A stretch of 30,368 bases of DNA from a virus: positions 1-30,368 of IMG/VR virus record IMGVR_UViG_3300017956_000078; one strand, written 5' to 3'. Shown here piece by piece: positions 6,958-21,770 of the stretch. The notes beneath the pieces are model-generated. The model searched no databases, was not told where the DNA came from, and was given only the letters and a program-made list of their open reading frames with translations. The translations under genes were made by a program, and so were the position numbers. The first letter of the stretch is position 1. Each line of letters starts with the position of its first letter.

Positions 6958-7238
6958 AACCTTTGAAATTCGCCGTTGCGAAGCCAACCATGCCAGCCGC
7001 AACCGCCAAGTTTCGTATCGTGATGAATCGACGGTGTTAATTCAATCGGATCTTCATTCAATAAATTCCATTCTTCCGAATGAATCCCCGAACGGAACGG
7101 AAGAAATGAAACTTCCCGGCATCCCGGACAACGTAAGATCAATCCAACCTTGCCGCCGTCTTGACCATATGAAAATTGATAAACGCCCGCCCGTTCATCT
7201 GAAACCGCATCTTCCGAAAGCTTTGCTTTGATCGTCAT
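6954..7238 (-). CDS. Small CxxC / CGWHG protein, DUF6527-like
   Basis: This encodes 94 residues, with the start overlapping the sulfotransferase stop as ATGA. It has CPGC near residue 37, a middle containing LTPSI and a C-terminal CGWHGWLRNGEF. The order 'C.GC ... W.L ... TPSI ... CGwHg.i.nG' resembles the DUF6527 family of small phage and accessory proteins with a zinc site. The assignment is by pattern. Its role is unknown. Confidence 0.75.
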   Translation of the reverse strand: MTIKAKLSEDAVSDERAGVYQFSYGQDGGKVGLILRCPGCREVSFLPFRSGIHSEEWNLLNEDPIELTPSIHHDTKLGGCGWHGWLRNGEFQRL

Positions 7239-7900
7239 TGCATTTTTTCGAGTTGTTGTTGCCGCAATTTCATTGCGTATTCATAAAGTTGATAATCAAT
7301 TGCGTGATATTCCGCAAACTTTTCTTTCAGCCCGGTATCGACTTCGGCCCCAACCGATTTATTGCGATGAAGGCATTGCAGTTCGGCTCCGATGAATTGC
7401 CGGGAAAAGCGTTGCAGATCTTCGGCGTAATGCTCCAAACATCCGATGAAATCAAAATTGTGCATCGGGAAAAAACAAAGATATTGCGAAAGAAAATTGC
7501 GATATCGATCTTGAAAACAAAATTCTTCAAACGTCAAATCGCTTTCGGCGAACTCGCGAACATGCGGTTCAACCGGGTTTTTGATCATCTTCCAAAACCG
7601 ATAATGCGAAGCCATGCGTTCAAACGGATCCCGCAACCAAACCGAAAAGTTCACATCAACTTTTTTCGAGAACGGCAAGAATACGAACGGCCTGAAATGC
7701 CCATGAATCGCCCCGTATGACGCAAAGCGTTCCGGGTAATCGAAAGCATCGATTGCCCGTTGCAAATCGCTCTTGCAGCGCTTGCCGCGTTCCTGAATCA
7801 ATCCATCGCCATACCGAAGAAACGATTCGCCGAAATGATCTTTCAACGCCTTGCCAAAACTTGAACCGCCCGTTTTCGGAACGTGAACCGATATAATCAT
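7235..7900 (-). CDS. Sulfotransferase-like protein (Sulfotransfer_2 type)
   Basis: This encodes 221 residues; the ATG at 7900 has AGGGAAAA upstream, 12 bases after the terminase stop. HVPKTGGSSF (6-15) is the 5'-phosphosulfate-binding loop of PAPS-dependent sulfotransferases. HGHF (66-69) and WLRDPFERMASHY (88-100) match the catalytic-His region and the 3'-phosphate-binding R..S motif of the Sulfotransfer_2 group. The reaction would move a sulfuryl group from PAPS to a sugar or similar acceptor. There is no signal peptide, so it would act in the cytoplasm. Its place between terminase and portal is unusual for such an enzyme. The acceptor cannot be told. Confidence 0.86.
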   Translation of the reverse strand: MIISVHVPKTGGSSFGKALKDHFGESFLRYGDGLIQERGKRCKSDLQRAIDAFDYPERFASYGAIHGHFRPFVFLPFSKKVDVNFSVWLRDPFERMASHYRFWKMIKNPVEPHVREFAESDLTFEEFCFQDRYRNFLSQYLCFFPMHNFDFIGCLEHYAEDLQRFSRQFIGAELQCLHRNKSVGAEVDTGLKEKFAEYHAIDYQLYEYAMKLRQQQLEKMQ

Positions 7901-7911
7901 TTTCGTTTTCC

Positions 7912-9699
7912 CTAAAATGCCCCGGCATCCAACCAATCGTTGATTGATTCTTTTGCAAACCGGTTCGCGTGAAACAAGTAACTTGCCGAATCCCCATCGT
8001 CGGGAGATCTGCCAAGCCGTTTTTCAATTGATTCAATCTTTTCTTCATGCCCCGGCGCGGTTCGCTTCGGAGTCAAATTGAACTTGAACGCATCGGAATC
8101 ATAAAGCTTTTCGAGAACCGCCAAATCTTCAAACAAACGTTGCGTTTCCGGAATGAGGAAAACCGGCATTCGCTTCAACGGAACATCATCATCAATCGAT
8201 TCGGAAAGCCCGATTTCGTCAAGCAAATCTTCGCTTGCTTCGCTTTGCATCATCGCGTTCGGATCCAACCGGTTCGCAAATTCGGCATATGCTTCAACGC
8301 GAAGATTTTTATATTTCTTGGGATTCAGTTCGCTTGTCGCATTCGGAACGAACTTGACAACGAACGCGCCCAATTCTTCCAGCCTATCGCCAACGCCCCG
8401 CCCGTATCCCCCGCCGTAATCAATGCAAATCGGGTAATCGCCGTCGGTAATTTCAACGCCGTATTCTTCGCGAATCGTTTTGATAACCCAAGCCGTTGTT
8501 TTCATTACGTTCGCTTTTTGCGTTCGATGTTGTTCCCGGATGCCATTCTTCCCGCCCGCCGTTAATACGCTCCAATCGCCTTTCAATTCGCTTGCCGCAA
8601 CATCCAGCCCGAACGCATCGACCGGCAACCGCTTATTCAACAACCAATCGCGAACGGCTTCATGCCCGTTCGCTTCGGCCCGTTCAAGCAATCGACGAAA
8701 CCGCGAATGTTGTTGTTGCGCGTATGCGATCCATTTGCGAAGAAAAAGTTGAACTTCCGCATCGGATTCCGGAAACCTTCCATGCGCATAACAGGCAACG
8801 AAATCGGGATCCGGATTGTTGAGAAGCGCAAGAAATTCATCGAAACAAGTTTGCCCCGGTATGATCGGCGAAACCTTTTTGAAATCTTCCGGTTCGACAT
8901 CTTCCCCGGCTTTGTATTCGGTTCCGTCGATGATGATTCCGCCCATCGGAGCGATTGAACGTTTCAGGCATTTCCTACGAACGTTCAAACAATCTTTTCC
9001 GTCAACGGTAATGCAACGCCGCCTTCCGTTCGGCCCGTTGAACGTATGCGTTTCGTTTTCCCGGCCTTTCGGAAATGCCCGGTAAAATTCCCCGCTTGTA
9101 ACGCGCGGGTTTCCCATCGCCAAAAATGAAGTTGCTTGCGTTGAACTCAACTTGTATCGCGGTTGCAGAACATCGGCGGTTGCTTCGTCGTAAACGTGCA
9201 AAACATGCGGAGAGTGAACCCCTTGAAAACCTTCCGGCGATTTCGGGTTTGCGATTGCTATGTAATGCCCTTCGCGGTTGTTCGGATCGTATGCGCCGTC
9301 ATTCAAAAGAACGGCATCGCAAAGATTGAACCGCATTCGTTTCCACCATGTTTTGACTTCGCCGTATAAAACGCGCTTCGCCGTTTCATGCTTATCGCGA
9401 GTCAATACAATTCGGGCATCGTGAAAAACTTGAAAGTAAAGACAAACGGCAATTCCGGCAATCGCGGTTTTTCCGCAACCCGTATTTCCTTTGATGAAGA
9501 CTTCCCGGATCTTCGGATCGAACAACGAACGAATCGCATCAACCTGAAATTCATCCAAGCGAACGCCGGGCCAAAGTTCACGAATCAACGGCAAAGGATC
9601 CCCGGCCCGGCATTTATTGATTGCAGGCGCTAGGCGAATCGCGGTGAGTATATCGGCGCTGAATGGTTCCGATAAAGATTCAATTGAATCCGTTTCCAT
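7912..9699 (-). CDS. Terminase large subunit
   Basis: This encodes 595 residues and starts with ATG three bases after the upstream stop, with GGAAGGGTAGAG as SD. The ATPase part has a Walker A GNTGCGKT (71-78), a Walker B ending HVYDEA (171-172 DE) and a coupling motif around LAMGNP (193-198). The nuclease part starts with GLDVAASELKGDWSV (Asp near 366), has a second acidic strand CIDYGG (near 430) and ends with an acidic cluster DDGDSASY (near 568), fitting an RNase H-like fold. The protein packages DNA into proheads using the portal. It is intact. Confidence 0.92.
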   Translation of the reverse strand: METDSIESLSEPFSADILTAIRLAPAINKCRAGDPLPLIRELWPGVRLDEFQVDAIRSLFDPKIREVFIKGNTGCGKTAIAGIAVCLYFQVFHDARIVLTRDKHETAKRVLYGEVKTWWKRMRFNLCDAVLLNDGAYDPNNREGHYIAIANPKSPEGFQGVHSPHVLHVYDEATADVLQPRYKLSSTQATSFLAMGNPRVTSGEFYRAFPKGRENETHTFNGPNGRRRCITVDGKDCLNVRRKCLKRSIAPMGGIIIDGTEYKAGEDVEPEDFKKVSPIIPGQTCFDEFLALLNNPDPDFVACYAHGRFPESDAEVQLFLRKWIAYAQQQHSRFRRLLERAEANGHEAVRDWLLNKRLPVDAFGLDVAASELKGDWSVLTAGGKNGIREQHRTQKANVMKTTAWVIKTIREEYGVEITDGDYPICIDYGGGYGRGVGDRLEELGAFVVKFVPNATSELNPKKYKNLRVEAYAEFANRLDPNAMMQSEASEDLLDEIGLSESIDDDVPLKRMPVFLIPETQRLFEDLAVLEKLYDSDAFKFNLTPKRTAPGHEEKIESIEKRLGRSPDDGDSASYLFHANRFAKESINDWLDAGAF

Positions 9700-18286: not shown

Positions 18287-19096
18287 TTAAGTTCCGGGAA
18301 TCCAAACCCGTCGGCAAACTTTTCCGTTGCAATAATAGGTTTTCCAGTAACCGCCGGAACTTTGTTTTTTCGGTTCCGGTTCGGTTGTTTTCGACCGGGC
18401 CGCCATGTTCGCGCGGATTTTATTGCACATAGAACAATTCGCTTTGTTGCAAACGGGCCGCTGATATCCGGAGTATTCCGGGAACGGAATCGAAACGGTT
18501 TGAACCGCCGCAATTTCTTTCGGCCTTTCCCAAAAGAACGAATCGCCGGATGCCGCCATTTCCAAACCCGGAACGCGATGTTGAATAGATGCGAACCGAT
18601 CCAAGTTTTCAAGTTTTGGTTTCAGCTTTTCGAGAACATTGGGCCAAAGATACGCAACGCCAACATCGGCATCCACATCAACCGCCGTCGCATCGCCTTC
18701 AATGATTTCAACCTTATCGGTCAAGCCAAGTTCGCGAACCCGCCGCCGGGCCGATGCCGCCCGTTCCGGATCGATTTCAATCCCGATTGAATCGCAACCA
18801 TAAATCGAACTTGCCGCGATGCAAAACCGGGCATCGTGCCCGCAACCGAAATCAACGAACGTTTCGTTCGGCTTCGGATTCAGTTCAAATAAAACCCGGT
18901 GAACTTCGGCAAAGCTTGTCGGTTGCGCTTCCGCCGGAAGATCTTCAACTTTCAATTCGGCAATCGGTTCAAAGCTTTCCAAGCTTCCAAAGTCAACATC
19001 AACCAAACTTCCGAATTCCATTGCCGAAGAAATCGAACAAGTCAAAAAGATCGATGCCGCAAGAATCCAACGCGTATCAACAAAAAACCATTTCAT
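18287..19096 (-). CDS. SAM-dependent methyltransferase-like protein with signal peptide
   Basis: This encodes 269 residues. The N-terminus has a positive end (KWFFVDTR), a hydrophobic core ILAASIFLTC and a likely signal peptidase site after SSA near residue 25. The fold is a class I methyltransferase: FVDFGCGHDARFCIAAS (80-96) as motif I, GIEIDPERAASARRRV (105-120), IIEGDATAVDV (131-141) and YLWPNVLEKLKPKL (149-162). The C-terminus has clustered Cys (VCNKANCSMCNKI and YYCNGKVCRR). Secreted relatives of this group exist in some bacteria, but SAM outside the cytoplasm is scarce. It is tightly linked (ATG two bases before the previous stop end) to the metalloprotease gene. Confidence 0.82.
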   Translation of the reverse strand: MKWFFVDTRWILAASIFLTCSISSAMEFGSLVDVDFGSLESFEPIAELKVEDLPAEAQPTSFAEVHRVLFELNPKPNETFVDFGCGHDARFCIAASSIYGCDSIGIEIDPERAASARRRVRELGLTDKVEIIEGDATAVDVDADVGVAYLWPNVLEKLKPKLENLDRFASIQHRVPGLEMAASGDSFFWERPKEIAAVQTVSIPFPEYSGYQRPVCNKANCSMCNKIRANMAARSKTTEPEPKKQSSGGYWKTYYCNGKVCRRVWIPGT

Positions 19097-19097
19097 T

Positions 19098-19991
19098 TCA
19101 TAAACTCCCTTTATCGGTAACAGAAACCATTTTGATCGGATACGAAGCGCCGCCGATCATAACTGTAACAACTCCCGAAGCCGTCGGATTATTCGGATCC
19201 GTCGGTTCCGTCGGTTCATCCGGTTTGCCTTGCGGCTCGCCGTAGTAATTGACGGCCCGCGCAATATCGAATTTTTGCGGAACATAAATTCCGCGTTGAT
19301 ATGACGGCCAAAGAATGCTTTCCCGCGTATTCGCGTGGTTCCATCCGAGCGCATGCCCAAGTTCGTGAACGGCAACGCCCAAAAGAAAAAGTTCGCTCCA
19401 ATTCTCGCGCGTGTCATATCGTTGTTGAAGTTGTTGATTCGGTGAGTTTTGGCATGGCAAATAAGACCATGCGAGCGTTCCGCCGCGTTGATCGATTCGC
19501 GCGGTTTCCGCGTTGATGTTTGCGGTTCCGTATCGGTTTGAAAACGTCAAACCAATGTTACAAACCTTATTCCATTCGTCAGCCGCGCGTTGAAAGATTC
19601 GCGTTGCTTCCGCCGTCGAAAGATTCAGTTCATCAAAGTTGCAGGAATACGAAACGCCGTTCATTTTTTCGATAGGCCAACGGCATTTTCCCGCGCCTTC
19701 CGCGCCCGCCGGTATGATATCCGGGCAACCGCATCGCGGTTCCATCATCGCCCGTTGAGTTTGCGGGCCGGGATCAGCATCGACCGTAAGCGAATAAAAA
19801 TCTTGAAAGCGTTTGATTGCTTCTTTGAATTCCGGCATTTGTTTTCGGATGAAGGCAACAACGTCTTCAAACGATTTGTTTTTCAATCCGTCAATGATTC
19901 CGTTGAAATATCCGTATCGATATAAAAACCGGATCATATTGAAAAGCGAAATTTCGGCATCGGTTTCTTTGATGATTTGTTCGATTGACAC
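19098..19991 (-). CDS. Matrixin (matrix-metalloproteinase-like) protease with cysteine switch
   Basis: This encodes 297 residues from GTG 19991, with AAAAGGCGG four bases before. Domains in order: helices (1-50); a PG_binding_1-like segment IKRFQDFYSLTVDADPGPQT (59-78); the cysteine switch PRCGCPD (85-91), nearly the PRCGxPD of MMP prodomains; then a catalytic domain with GGTLAWSYLP (170-179) and YDTRENWSELFLLGV, and the zinc site HELGHALGWNH (209-219; H209, H213, H219 and catalytic E210). The Met-turn reads SILWP instead of the usual alMYP, so the Met is Leu. The His residues that hold the structural zinc in MMPs are Trp and Arg here. A Pro/Glu/Thr linker and a short beta domain end the protein. 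No signal peptide is seen. Probably cleaves an extracellular or envelope protein. Confidence 0.88.
   Translation of the reverse strand: MSIEQIIKETDAEISLFNMIRFLYRYGYFNGIIDGLKNKSFEDVVAFIRKQMPEFKEAIKRFQDFYSLTVDADPGPQTQRAMMEPRCGCPDIIPAGAEGAGKCRWPIEKMNGVSYSCNFDELNLSTAEATRIFQRAADEWNKVCNIGLTFSNRYGTANINAETARIDQRGGTLAWSYLPCQNSPNQQLQQRYDTRENWSELFLLGVAVHELGHALGWNHANTRESILWPSYQRGIYVPQKFDIARAVNYYGEPQGKPDEPTEPTDPNNPTASGVVTVMIGGASYPIKMVSVTDKGSL
19195..19228 (-). repeat. Pro/Glu/Thr-linker DNA repeat, copy in protease gene
   Basis: The DNA encoding PDEPTEPTDP near the protease C-terminus closely matches that encoding the linker of the upstream gene at about 20327-20400 (GGTTCCGTCGGTTC blocks on the plus strand). 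Homologous repeats of this kind can mediate domain exchange. Confidence 0.55.
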
Positions 19992-20002
19992 AATACCGCC
20001 TT

Positions 20003-20872
20003 TTAGTTGATAAGTTCCAAGCCGTTCGCAATTTCGTTCCATGCGGTTGCAAACTGTTCCGGCGAATTCATTTTTCCGCCCGCTTCAAGTTTATCCAAGC
20101 GTTCCGCAATTGTCGCATACCAATCGCGCCACGCGTTCACATCGGCCCCAAGCGTTGAACGTAAACCGCCCAACGTTTCCGCAACGGTCTTTTGAACGTC
20201 GGAATGCCCGGCGTTTGCAACGGCCCGAAAAACTCCCGCAACATCATCGGCCCGCCCGCGTGCCTGTTGTTCAATCTTTCGCGCTTCTTTCAACGCGAAT
20301 TCCGACAAACCATATTCGCCCGGCTTCGGCTTGTCCGGTTCATTCGGTTTCGTCGGTTCATCCGGTTCCGTCGGTTCCGTCGGTTCATCGGGTTTCGGCG
20401 GTTCCGGAAAATCGCCGCCGATTTTGATTGAATGCGTTGCCTTGCTGAAAATCGGTTTGCCGTCTTTGCAGTTCGATGCCCAAAGCCTGAATTCGTAAAT
20501 GCCCGGCCTGTTGATTGTGCAAATTAAATCCCGTCCGCAAATTCTGAAATCCGTAGGATTTGGCAAGTTAATCGGATCCCATTGAACCGAATCGCCGATT
20601 GAATCGTTTGCGCTGAGAGTGATTAAACGGCCCGCATCGGCTTCCGTCGGGCCTTCAATGATTGCTTGCGGTTGCGCCCATTCATCCGGAGTTTCAACCG
20701 CTTCCAGCGTTCCGAAGTATTGTTGCGGATTGCTGGAAACTTCAACGGCCCCGCCGCCCGCAATCGCCCCGGCAATTAACACGCCGATTCGCTTTGACCA
20801 TTTTTTCAGATATTCCCGGATCAATTTTTTCTGTTCCATCGGATCAACCGATTGAAAAGCTTCATGCGCCAT
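20003..20872 (-). CDS. Membrane-anchored protein with PKD-like domain and P/E/T linker
   Basis: About 289 residues from ATG 20872; ATG 20878 (two residues earlier, ATGA overlap with the previous stop) is also possible, but the SD AGAGGA suits 20872 better. A short basic N-terminus is followed by a transmembrane segment at about 29-46 (IGVLIAGAIAGGGAV). Residues ~70-155 are beta-rich and Ig/PKD-like (GRLITLSANDSIGDSVQW, then GIYEFRLWASN). A linker of PEPTEP-type repeats spans ~157-185, then ~100 residues of helices. It would be held in the membrane with the bulk outside the cytoplasm. It may bring the following protease to the envelope, as both share the linker type. Confidence 0.78.
   Translation of the reverse strand: MAHEAFQSVDPMEQKKLIREYLKKWSKRIGVLIAGAIAGGGAVEVSSNPQQYFGTLEAVETPDEWAQPQAIIEGPTEADAGRLITLSANDSIGDSVQWDPINLPNPTDFRICGRDLICTINRPGIYEFRLWASNCKDGKPIFSKATHSIKIGGDFPEPPKPDEPTEPTEPDEPTKPNEPDKPKPGEYGLSEFALKEARKIEQQARGRADDVAGVFRAVANAGHSDVQKTVAETLGGLRSTLGADVNAWRDWYATIAERLDKLEAGGKMNSPEQFATAWNEIANGLELIN
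20327..20400 (-). repeat. Pro/Glu/Thr-linker DNA repeat, copy in anchored protein gene
   Basis: Tandem short units coding for EPTEPTEPDEPTKPNEPD. It is the longer copy of the repeat at 19195-19228. Confidence 0.6.
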
Positions 20873-20874
20873 TT

Positions 20875-21504
20875 TCATTTCCTCTTTTTTTGAACTGTGA
20901 ATTCGTAATTGAAGCAATGCGAGTTTGTAAGATGCGACGGTTCGACCAAGTATGCCGGAAGCCTTAAAACCGGATCCACATTTCCGCCAAGTTGCATTGC
21001 AAAGGCAATCGCGTGAGAACAAAACGGCCTTACGTTTTTAAGTTCATTCGGATTCAAAACGTCGGTAATGTCAACTGGAAAGAATCGCCAGATAAAAGGC
21101 AAATGCCGAAGGGCAAGCGCCGCAACGTTGTCATATCCATAACCGCGCGTAACCAAATCGCGCATCACTTCAATTGTTCCGTTCGCATCGTATTCCGGAA
21201 ATCGATCTTTGTTGATCGAAAAAACATCCATTCGCCCGCCGAACTTTTCAACGTGATATTCAAACGGAAGCGAACGCCCGCCGCGAAACTCTCGCATTTC
21301 CAAAACGTTGACGTTTTTTTTTCCGTTCTCGAAAACGTGGGCAAGCGCTGAATGCGTATGCGGTTGCCCGGATGATGCCCATCTAATCGCGTTTGAAACA
21401 ATCCCCGCCGCGCCCCGATATTGAATCAACCAGCCGTTTTGAATTTCATTCGCCGCCGCTTCCGGCGTAATGCTGCGCATTTCATCGAACGTAAAATGTT
21501 TCAT
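20875..21504 (-). CDS. Permuted papain-like hydrolase (YiiX / NlpC-P60-like)
   Basis: This encodes 209 residues, ATG overlapping the previous stop as ATGA. The order of motifs is circularly permuted compared with classic NlpC/P60 enzymes: GQPHTHSALA (46-55) supplies the catalytic His (H51 or H49), VLEMREFRGG an acidic residue near 69, YGYDNVAAL (122-130) the family's 'Y.y' site and FCSHAIAFAM (161-170) the nucleophile C162. Members act on peptide or amide bonds, such as in cell-wall peptides or lipids. With the coiled-coil membrane protein before and the protease after, an envelope-degrading role is likely. No signal peptide is present. Confidence 0.83.
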   Translation of the reverse strand: MKHFTFDEMRSITPEAAANEIQNGWLIQYRGAAGIVSNAIRWASSGQPHTHSALAHVFENGKKNVNVLEMREFRGGRSLPFEYHVEKFGGRMDVFSINKDRFPEYDANGTIEVMRDLVTRGYGYDNVAALALRHLPFIWRFFPVDITDVLNPNELKNVRPFCSHAIAFAMQLGGNVDPVLRLPAYLVEPSHLTNSHCFNYEFTVQKKRK

Positions 21505-21770
21505 GATTCCAAACGGGTAATCCGTTCCGCATTCGTATTAACTTTTTCGTGAAGTTGCGCCGTTTGTTCTTTTACTTCGGTTTTCAGGTTTGACAATTCG
21601 AGTTTCAGAAATGGCATATCTTCGTTTTTGATTGTTTCGATTTTTGTATTGATAGTTGCCAGCCGCCAAACCGCCGCAAGTCCAACGGCAAGAATCGAAA
21701 CCAAGCTTGCAAAGATTCCAACAACAACCGCGATTTGCGAATAATTCGTTTCGGCAAGAATTGCGAACAT
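21501..21770 (-). CDS. Membrane coiled-coil protein at the head of the envelope module
   Basis: This encodes 89 residues after the SD GAAAGGG. One transmembrane segment at about 13-36 (IAVVVGIFASLVSILAVGLAAVW) is followed by a charged helix to the end with heptad-like Leu/Val spacing (LKLELSNLKTEVKEQTAQLHEKV). Topology suits a holin-like or spanin-like helper, or a phage DUF1640/hemolysin-XhlA-like protein. It is coupled to the hydrolase gene by ATGA. A lysis role is inferred from this pairing. Confidence 0.75.
   Translation of the reverse strand: MFAILAETNYSQIAVVVGIFASLVSILAVGLAAVWRLATINTKIETIKNEDMPFLKLELSNLKTEVKEQTAQLHEKVNTNAERITRLES

Follow-up and report, generated by a model that had tools for sequence, protein, structure and literature searches.

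The IMG/VR virus record IMGVR_UViG_3300017956_000078 carries a gene for a matrixin that is very probably a zymogen of the matrix metalloproteinase (MMP) type. Latency through a cysteine switch and a complete MMP prodomain is known from animals as textbook biology. The record was analysed over its whole length of 30,368 bases, which we call the window. So far as sequence and a predicted structure can tell, the protein would behave as an MMP zymogen, and dozens of related genes were found in other phages, which are represented by metagenome sequences only.

The gene and its motifs

The gene lies on the minus strand at positions 19098 to 19991 (read from 19991 to 19098) and encodes 297 amino acids; the preliminary description had these coordinates right and left the strand unsaid. 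The GTG start codon is preceded by AAAGGCGG. GTG is the sole start that the window gene has in common with its 77% identical homologue in a sister phage, and in the sister gene a stop codon is located just upstream of this shared start. The protein has no transmembrane (TM) segment, and by inspection no signal peptide was found.

All features of the protein are encoded on the minus strand. An MMP/PG-binding-like prodomain covers residues 19-82 (19746..19937), as identified by a PG_binding_1 match and by comparison of a family profile with pro-MMPs, and the stretch LYRYGY in the prodomain is common to the window protein and pro-MMP-9. The cysteine switch PRCGCPD follows at residues 85-91 (19719..19739), with P85, C87 and D91. 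The catalytic zinc site HELGHALGWNH was located at residues 209-219 (19335..19367) and the Met-turn SILWPSY at residues 225-231 (19299..19319), with Leu227 replacing Met. The two structural-zinc His positions are occupied by W175 (19467..19469; GGTLAW175SYLP, aligned to LAHAF of pro-MMP-1) and R191 (19419..19421; QQR191YD, aligned to DAHFD of pro-MMP-1). Two further cysteines, C103 (19683..19685) and C180 (19452..19454), are proposed disulfide partners, as their positions covary across the family. All motifs named in the preliminary description (PRCGCPD, GGTLAWSYLP, HELGHALGWNH, the Leu of the Met-turn and the Trp and Arg at the structural-zinc positions) were present, and the sister gene retains every motif.

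Family assignment and predicted structure

The HMM search proposed in the preliminary description was run against Pfam, and both expected families exceeded their curated cut-offs. Peptidase_M10 (PF00413) matched residues 112-232 at 1.9e-14 (54.3 bits, cut-off 24) and PG_binding_1 matched residues 53-82 at 1.2e-7 (32.3 bits, cut-off 23). With phmmer the top match in the PDB was the zymogen pro-MMP-1 (5.7e-16), in an alignment that spans the prodomain and PRCGxPD and reaches the Met-turn. The family profile matched pro-MMP-1 at 1.6e-40 and pro-MMP-9 at 6.4e-35.

The structure was predicted without templates from an alignment of 55 sequences (pLDDT 85, pTM 0.78). In the structure comparison, which had also been proposed, the model overlaid whole human pro-MMP-3, -9 and -10 including the prodomain, with best TM scores of 0.77-0.82 and an rmsd of 2.7-3.4 Å over approximately 230-250 columns. 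The catalytic fold was that of MMPs (TMt 0.82-0.84 against MMP-1 catalytic domains). An earlier model from 25 sequences had left the switch unresolved, with an rmsd of about 8 Å to the zymogens, and the deeper alignment resolved it. As the model agrees with the zymogens across both domains, it implies that Cys87 would be placed at the catalytic zinc and that the prodomain would be docked as in a zymogen. The MMP-type order of prodomain, switch and catalytic part, which had been read from the sequence, was thus borne out by Pfam, by the PDB alignments and by the predicted model.

Relatives in phages

The window belongs to a tailed phage. Its annotatable genes are all on the minus strand and encode a terminase large subunit, a portal protein, a head morphogenesis protein, RecE- and RecT-like recombination proteins and a RuvC-like resolvase. 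A Sulfotransferase_2 match (5.8e-7) was also found at 7235-7936 on the minus strand, and the sister phage likewise has a Sulfotransfer_1 protein. Two other contigs carry the matrixin at 100% identity. The sister contig (59 kb, 77% identity) also encodes a phage capsid protein and a tape measure protein.

IMG/VR was scanned for the motif pair CGxPD and HExGHxxG, in this order and at their native distance. The scan gave 80 loci, 79 of which encode an in-frame cysteine-switch matrixin (three of these are the window's own group again), and approximately 51 non-redundant phage genes were left once sequences more than 90% identical had been removed. The preliminary description, which knew of no typical phage gene with such a latency device, has to be corrected on this point. 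The TGC form of the scan gave 69 matches at the native 335-365 nt, none at 304-334 nt and six at 366-396 nt, five of them real. A chance motif was ruled out by the empty shorter control spacing and by the sister gene with its full set of motifs. Contamination of the phage assembly with a lone eukaryotic gene was likewise ruled out by the two contigs at 100%, the sister at 77% and the family of 79 loci.

Most of the loci belong to a lineage of approximately 204-kb phages in which the genes surrounding M10 have one fixed order. An RNA-polymerase-like gene lies close by; its match to Pfam Rpb2 domain 2 falls below the cut-off. The window's group consists of smaller, diverse phages. Each of 12 records checked had exactly one M10 gene. 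The window protein had no significant match in INPHARED or in PHROGs, and no PHROG covers it. Searches of the open-licence literature found no phage protein described with an MMP cysteine switch. A few phage proteins with the M10 fold are present in BFVD, some of them already named matrixin or Zn protease.

In the alignment of 55 sequences C87, G88, P90 and D91 were invariant, which is partly due to selection, as the relatives were collected through the CGxPD pattern. H209, E210, H213, G216 and H219 were invariant as well, and the third His, H219, is the only zinc-site His outside the fetch pattern. The relatives L054 and L080 lack the prodomain and retain CGxPD.

Met-turn, structural zinc and cysteines

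Two deviations from MMPs had been pointed out in the preliminary description and both are real, but they differ in reach. The Met of the Met-turn is found in 49 of the 51 representatives and is missing only in the window protein and its sister L003. The structural-zinc His, in contrast, are absent across the family, with no His at the first position in the 51 representatives. Without the Met of the Met-turn and without the structural zinc, the phage protein is a divergent variant of the matrixin family and not a canonical member.

The cysteine before a conserved WP (C103) co-occurs with the cysteine after LP (C180). Both are shifted in six proteins (WPxxC with NxC) and both are absent in four, and L141 has the first only. 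The pattern in the sequences suggests that a C103-C180 disulfide may stand in for the structural zinc; the covariation comprises two to three independent changes, too few for significance in a phylogenetically corrected test.

A TM scan found no TM-like stretch in any of the 51 representatives, and the family members are without signal peptides. L138, which has a Tat-type leader, is the sole exception and falls outside the main group. In the phage matrixins L138 and L140 the Tat-type leader directly precedes CGVPD and the PG-like prodomain is lacking.

Cellular relatives and host

In the tree, 29 of 32 phage proteins were separated from the bacterial and animal MMPs by a 94/99 branch; a single phage clade was neither demonstrated nor rejected (p-AU 0.33). 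The nearest cellular locus, L088, is a 20-kb contig in a Planctomycetaceae MAG. Terminase and portal genes (by eye) adjoin its matrixin, and L088 may therefore be either a prophage or phage DNA that was binned into the MAG. Among 392 Planctomycetota genomes a strong match was obtained in the L088 genome only. No match at 1e-27 was found in 289 genomes of the phylum of a Puniceicoccaceae bacterium or in 399 of the phylum of a Rhodoferax. Two matches were detected in 297 genomes of the phylum of a Chitinophaga, and these are bacterial proteins that combine a prodomain with a Cys-Gly switch motif. The matrixins L120, L122 and L124 of Planctomycetota have a PG-like N-terminal region and lack both a signal peptide and CGxPD. 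L128, from the Bacteroidota search, has a matrixin with PRCGFPD to which long C-terminal repeats are fused and which keeps the structural-zinc His.

One link, a single contig, points to a planctomycete host. The methyltransferase-like neighbour of the matrixin was tried as a host clue and proved weak, with nearly equal frequencies in Planctomycetota (3/246) and in a comparison phylum (2/249). Planctomycetes were long believed to have protein walls and were later shown to have peptidoglycan (PMC4432640); they would be fitting hosts.

Gene neighbourhood

The matrixin gene is the fourth of a tight operon, all on the minus strand. The first gene (21501..21770) encodes an 89-aa protein with a TM segment and a coiled coil, holin- or spanin-like in shape and without a significant family match. 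The second (20875..21504) encodes a 209-aa protein that is permuted-papain/NlpC-like by eye (HTHS...FCSHA), 78% identical in the sister phage and without anything significant in Pfam. The third (20003..20878) is the upstream partner, with an N-terminal hydrophobic anchor and an Ig/PKD-like middle (both by eye) and a conserved C-terminal domain from which a profile was made. The matrixin is followed by a SAM methyltransferase-like protein (18287..19096) with a signal-peptide-like N-terminus by eye; Methyltransf_11 matched just over the cut-off (1.5e-4) and Methyltransf_25 just under it (2.3e-5). The first three genes overlap by four bases each, and short gaps follow thereafter, including one of 11 bp.

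With the profile of its C-terminal domain, the partner family was found beside M10 in seven divergent phages; in six of these its gene immediately precedes that of the matrixin. The N-termini of this family are signal-peptide- or TM-like (TM scan, partly by eye). The +2 gene of the jumbo phages was considered as a homologue of the partner family and was not supported (hhalign probability 6%). The approximately 204-kb phages encode TM proteins on both sides of M10, in a fixed order. In the sister phage the cassette sits between recombination genes and the terminase.

Other genes recur close to the matrixin. Clustered homologues of the methyltransferase-like gene are present in L003, after M10, and in L082, two genes on. 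The gene just downstream of the matrixin in L028 and L082 encodes a secreted protein that by eye resembles thioredoxin, with CPPC in L028, and that is possibly a redox partner for the cysteine switch. A 341-aa papain-like protein (L008 4080-5105 and homologues; by eye DCVSWS, WAHA, QNSWG) is encoded a few genes after M10 in large phages. L088, L021 and L037 have a homologous gene near the matrixin, with a CxxCH motif in L088 that is cytochrome-c-like by eye.

No endolysin, lysozyme or amidase Pfam family was detected in the 51 ORFs of the 59-kb sister phage. As its contig may be incomplete and many ORFs are without assignment, an endolysin may have escaped recognition there; the 209-aa papain-like protein would be one candidate. 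In two relatives the prodomain matched a C-terminal region of endolysin PHROGs, as a weak domain match.

Proposed role

We give about an even chance to the protein being a latent protease of the envelope or of lysis that is released late. The zymogen would be synthesised in the cytoplasm of the infected cell, where, judging from homology and the predicted structure, the PG-binding-like prodomain would bring Cys87 of the PRCGCPD switch to the catalytic zinc and thereby hold the enzyme latent. At the end of infection it would leave the cytoplasm, probably through a holin-like lesion made by the neighbouring small membrane proteins. Outside, it would be activated by cleavage of the prodomain or by a redox change at the cysteines, and the active enzyme would cut an envelope protein of the host, perhaps the upstream partner with its membrane anchor, and so aid lysis. 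Activation after release or lysis is plausible; location, late timing, substrate and the part in envelope breakdown are, like activation, what we infer. The phage context points in this direction, as do a protein without signal peptide in an operon with a small TM protein, the secreted or anchored partner in seven divergent phages, the sister phage without a Pfam endolysin and the prodomain match to endolysin PHROGs. Against it stand the endolysin that may have gone unrecognised in the sister phage, the TM neighbours, which have no significant holin-family match, and the missing Met of the Met-turn.

It is unlikely that the protein is a true endolysin, with an N-terminal domain that binds peptidoglycan, an M10 domain that cleaves wall peptides and a cysteine motif of secondary importance. 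Such an enzyme would explain why the N-terminal domain matches PG_binding_1 and, in relatives, a part of endolysin PHROGs, and why no other endolysin was recognised in the sister phage. However, the match to MMP zymogens (1.6e-40) takes in the N-terminal domain, the switch and the catalytic part as a single unit, and the domain is predicted to dock as in a zymogen. L054 and L080 keep CGxPD without this domain. M10 enzymes also cleave protein chains and not D-amino-acid crosslinks.

Somewhat less probable is a protease of the virion or of its maturation, with capsid or tail proteins as substrates or with a role in entry. Phages do use proteases for maturation, and the role needs no signal peptide, but the gene lies outside the head and tail module and shares its operon with genes for membrane and secreted proteins, and the partners are secreted or anchored. 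An early cytoplasmic protease directed against host regulators or defence proteins is improbable: the lack of an export signal and the presence in large phages and a possible prophage would suit it, but no early-gene setting was seen, and a means of latency, like the secretion of the partners, accords with an enzyme that has to be kept off in the cytoplasm. We think still less of a moron gene that supplies a lysogen with an exoprotease for nutrition or competition. L088, next to terminase and portal genes in a planctomycete MAG, may be a prophage and there are neighbours with signal peptides, yet the M10 protein itself has none and the gene is fixed in the approximately 204-kb phages of one lineage. 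Finally, a dead enzyme, inactive because it has lost the structural zinc and the Met of the Met-turn, is very improbable, for although Leu replaces Met in the window and sister pair only and both zinc-2 His are replaced, all catalytic residues are retained, these His are missing family-wide, the 77% identical sister keeps every motif, and MMP-2 with Leu at the Met-turn Met was reported to be only slightly impaired (PMC1266349).

Comparison with known proteases

The latent lysis protease proposed here can be set beside several known systems. Animal pro-MMPs (MMP-1, -3, -9 and -10; M10A) share with the phage protein the prodomain, the PRCGxPD switch, the catalytic fold and HExxHxxGxxH. The phage protein differs from them by the lack of a signal peptide and of the structural-zinc His, by Leu in the Met-turn and by a short C-terminal segment of its own instead of hemopexin, and the identity over the structural alignments is approximately 22-27%. 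Karilysin, an MMP of Tannerella forsythia, is another prokaryotic M10 catalytic domain, whose latency is due to an aspartate switch in a propeptide of 14 residues (PMC6949598), whereas the phage protein has a full MMP-type prodomain with Cys. The bacterial promyroilysin and promirolysin are also metzincins with a cysteine switch, but they belong to the astacin and pappalysin families, have short propeptides and are not MMPs (PMC6949598). The Bacteroidota matrixins L128 (PRCGFPD) and L129 (DRCGTLD) have a PG-like prodomain and a switch; both fall on the bacterial and animal side of the tree, and L128 differs in its structural-zinc His and C-terminal repeats.

Among viruses, the insect-virus matrixins of granuloviruses, ascoviruses, entomopoxviruses and iridescent viruses also have the M10 fold, but these are eukaryotic DNA viruses and the identity in structural alignments is 13-24%. 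Named phage matrixins or Zn proteases (Maribacter phage Colly_1, Lactobacillus phage 3-521, Caudovirales A0A6J5P205) and the uncharacterised A0A6J5RTD2 have an M10-like fold as well; compared by fold, they are weaker matches with 14-18% identity. In Listeria, the phage-derived metzincin Mtz and its TIMP-like lipoprotein partner Tim sensitise cells to phage lysis (PMC8235301). By its arrangement this phage-linked metzincin with an anchored partner may serve as a precedent for a protease that eases lysis, although the Listeria metzincin is secreted and the phage protein has no signal peptide.

Significance

The full-prodomain cysteine switch recurs in dozens of phages, in a group that is, with three exceptions, apart from the bacterial and animal enzymes. 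We put forward, tentatively, that phages hold their own MMP branch in which a full animal-style cysteine-switch zymogen would serve as a protease-based lysis device, released by a holin, with a disulfide for the structural zinc and a dedicated extracytoplasmic partner, and suited to hosts whose envelopes are rich in protein, for example planctomycetes. The protein offers a natural MMP scaffold without structural zinc and data on the origin of MMP zymogens. It is a candidate, open to testing, for the means by which protein-rich envelopes of little-known bacteria are breached by their phages, and possibly a new class of lysis enzyme.
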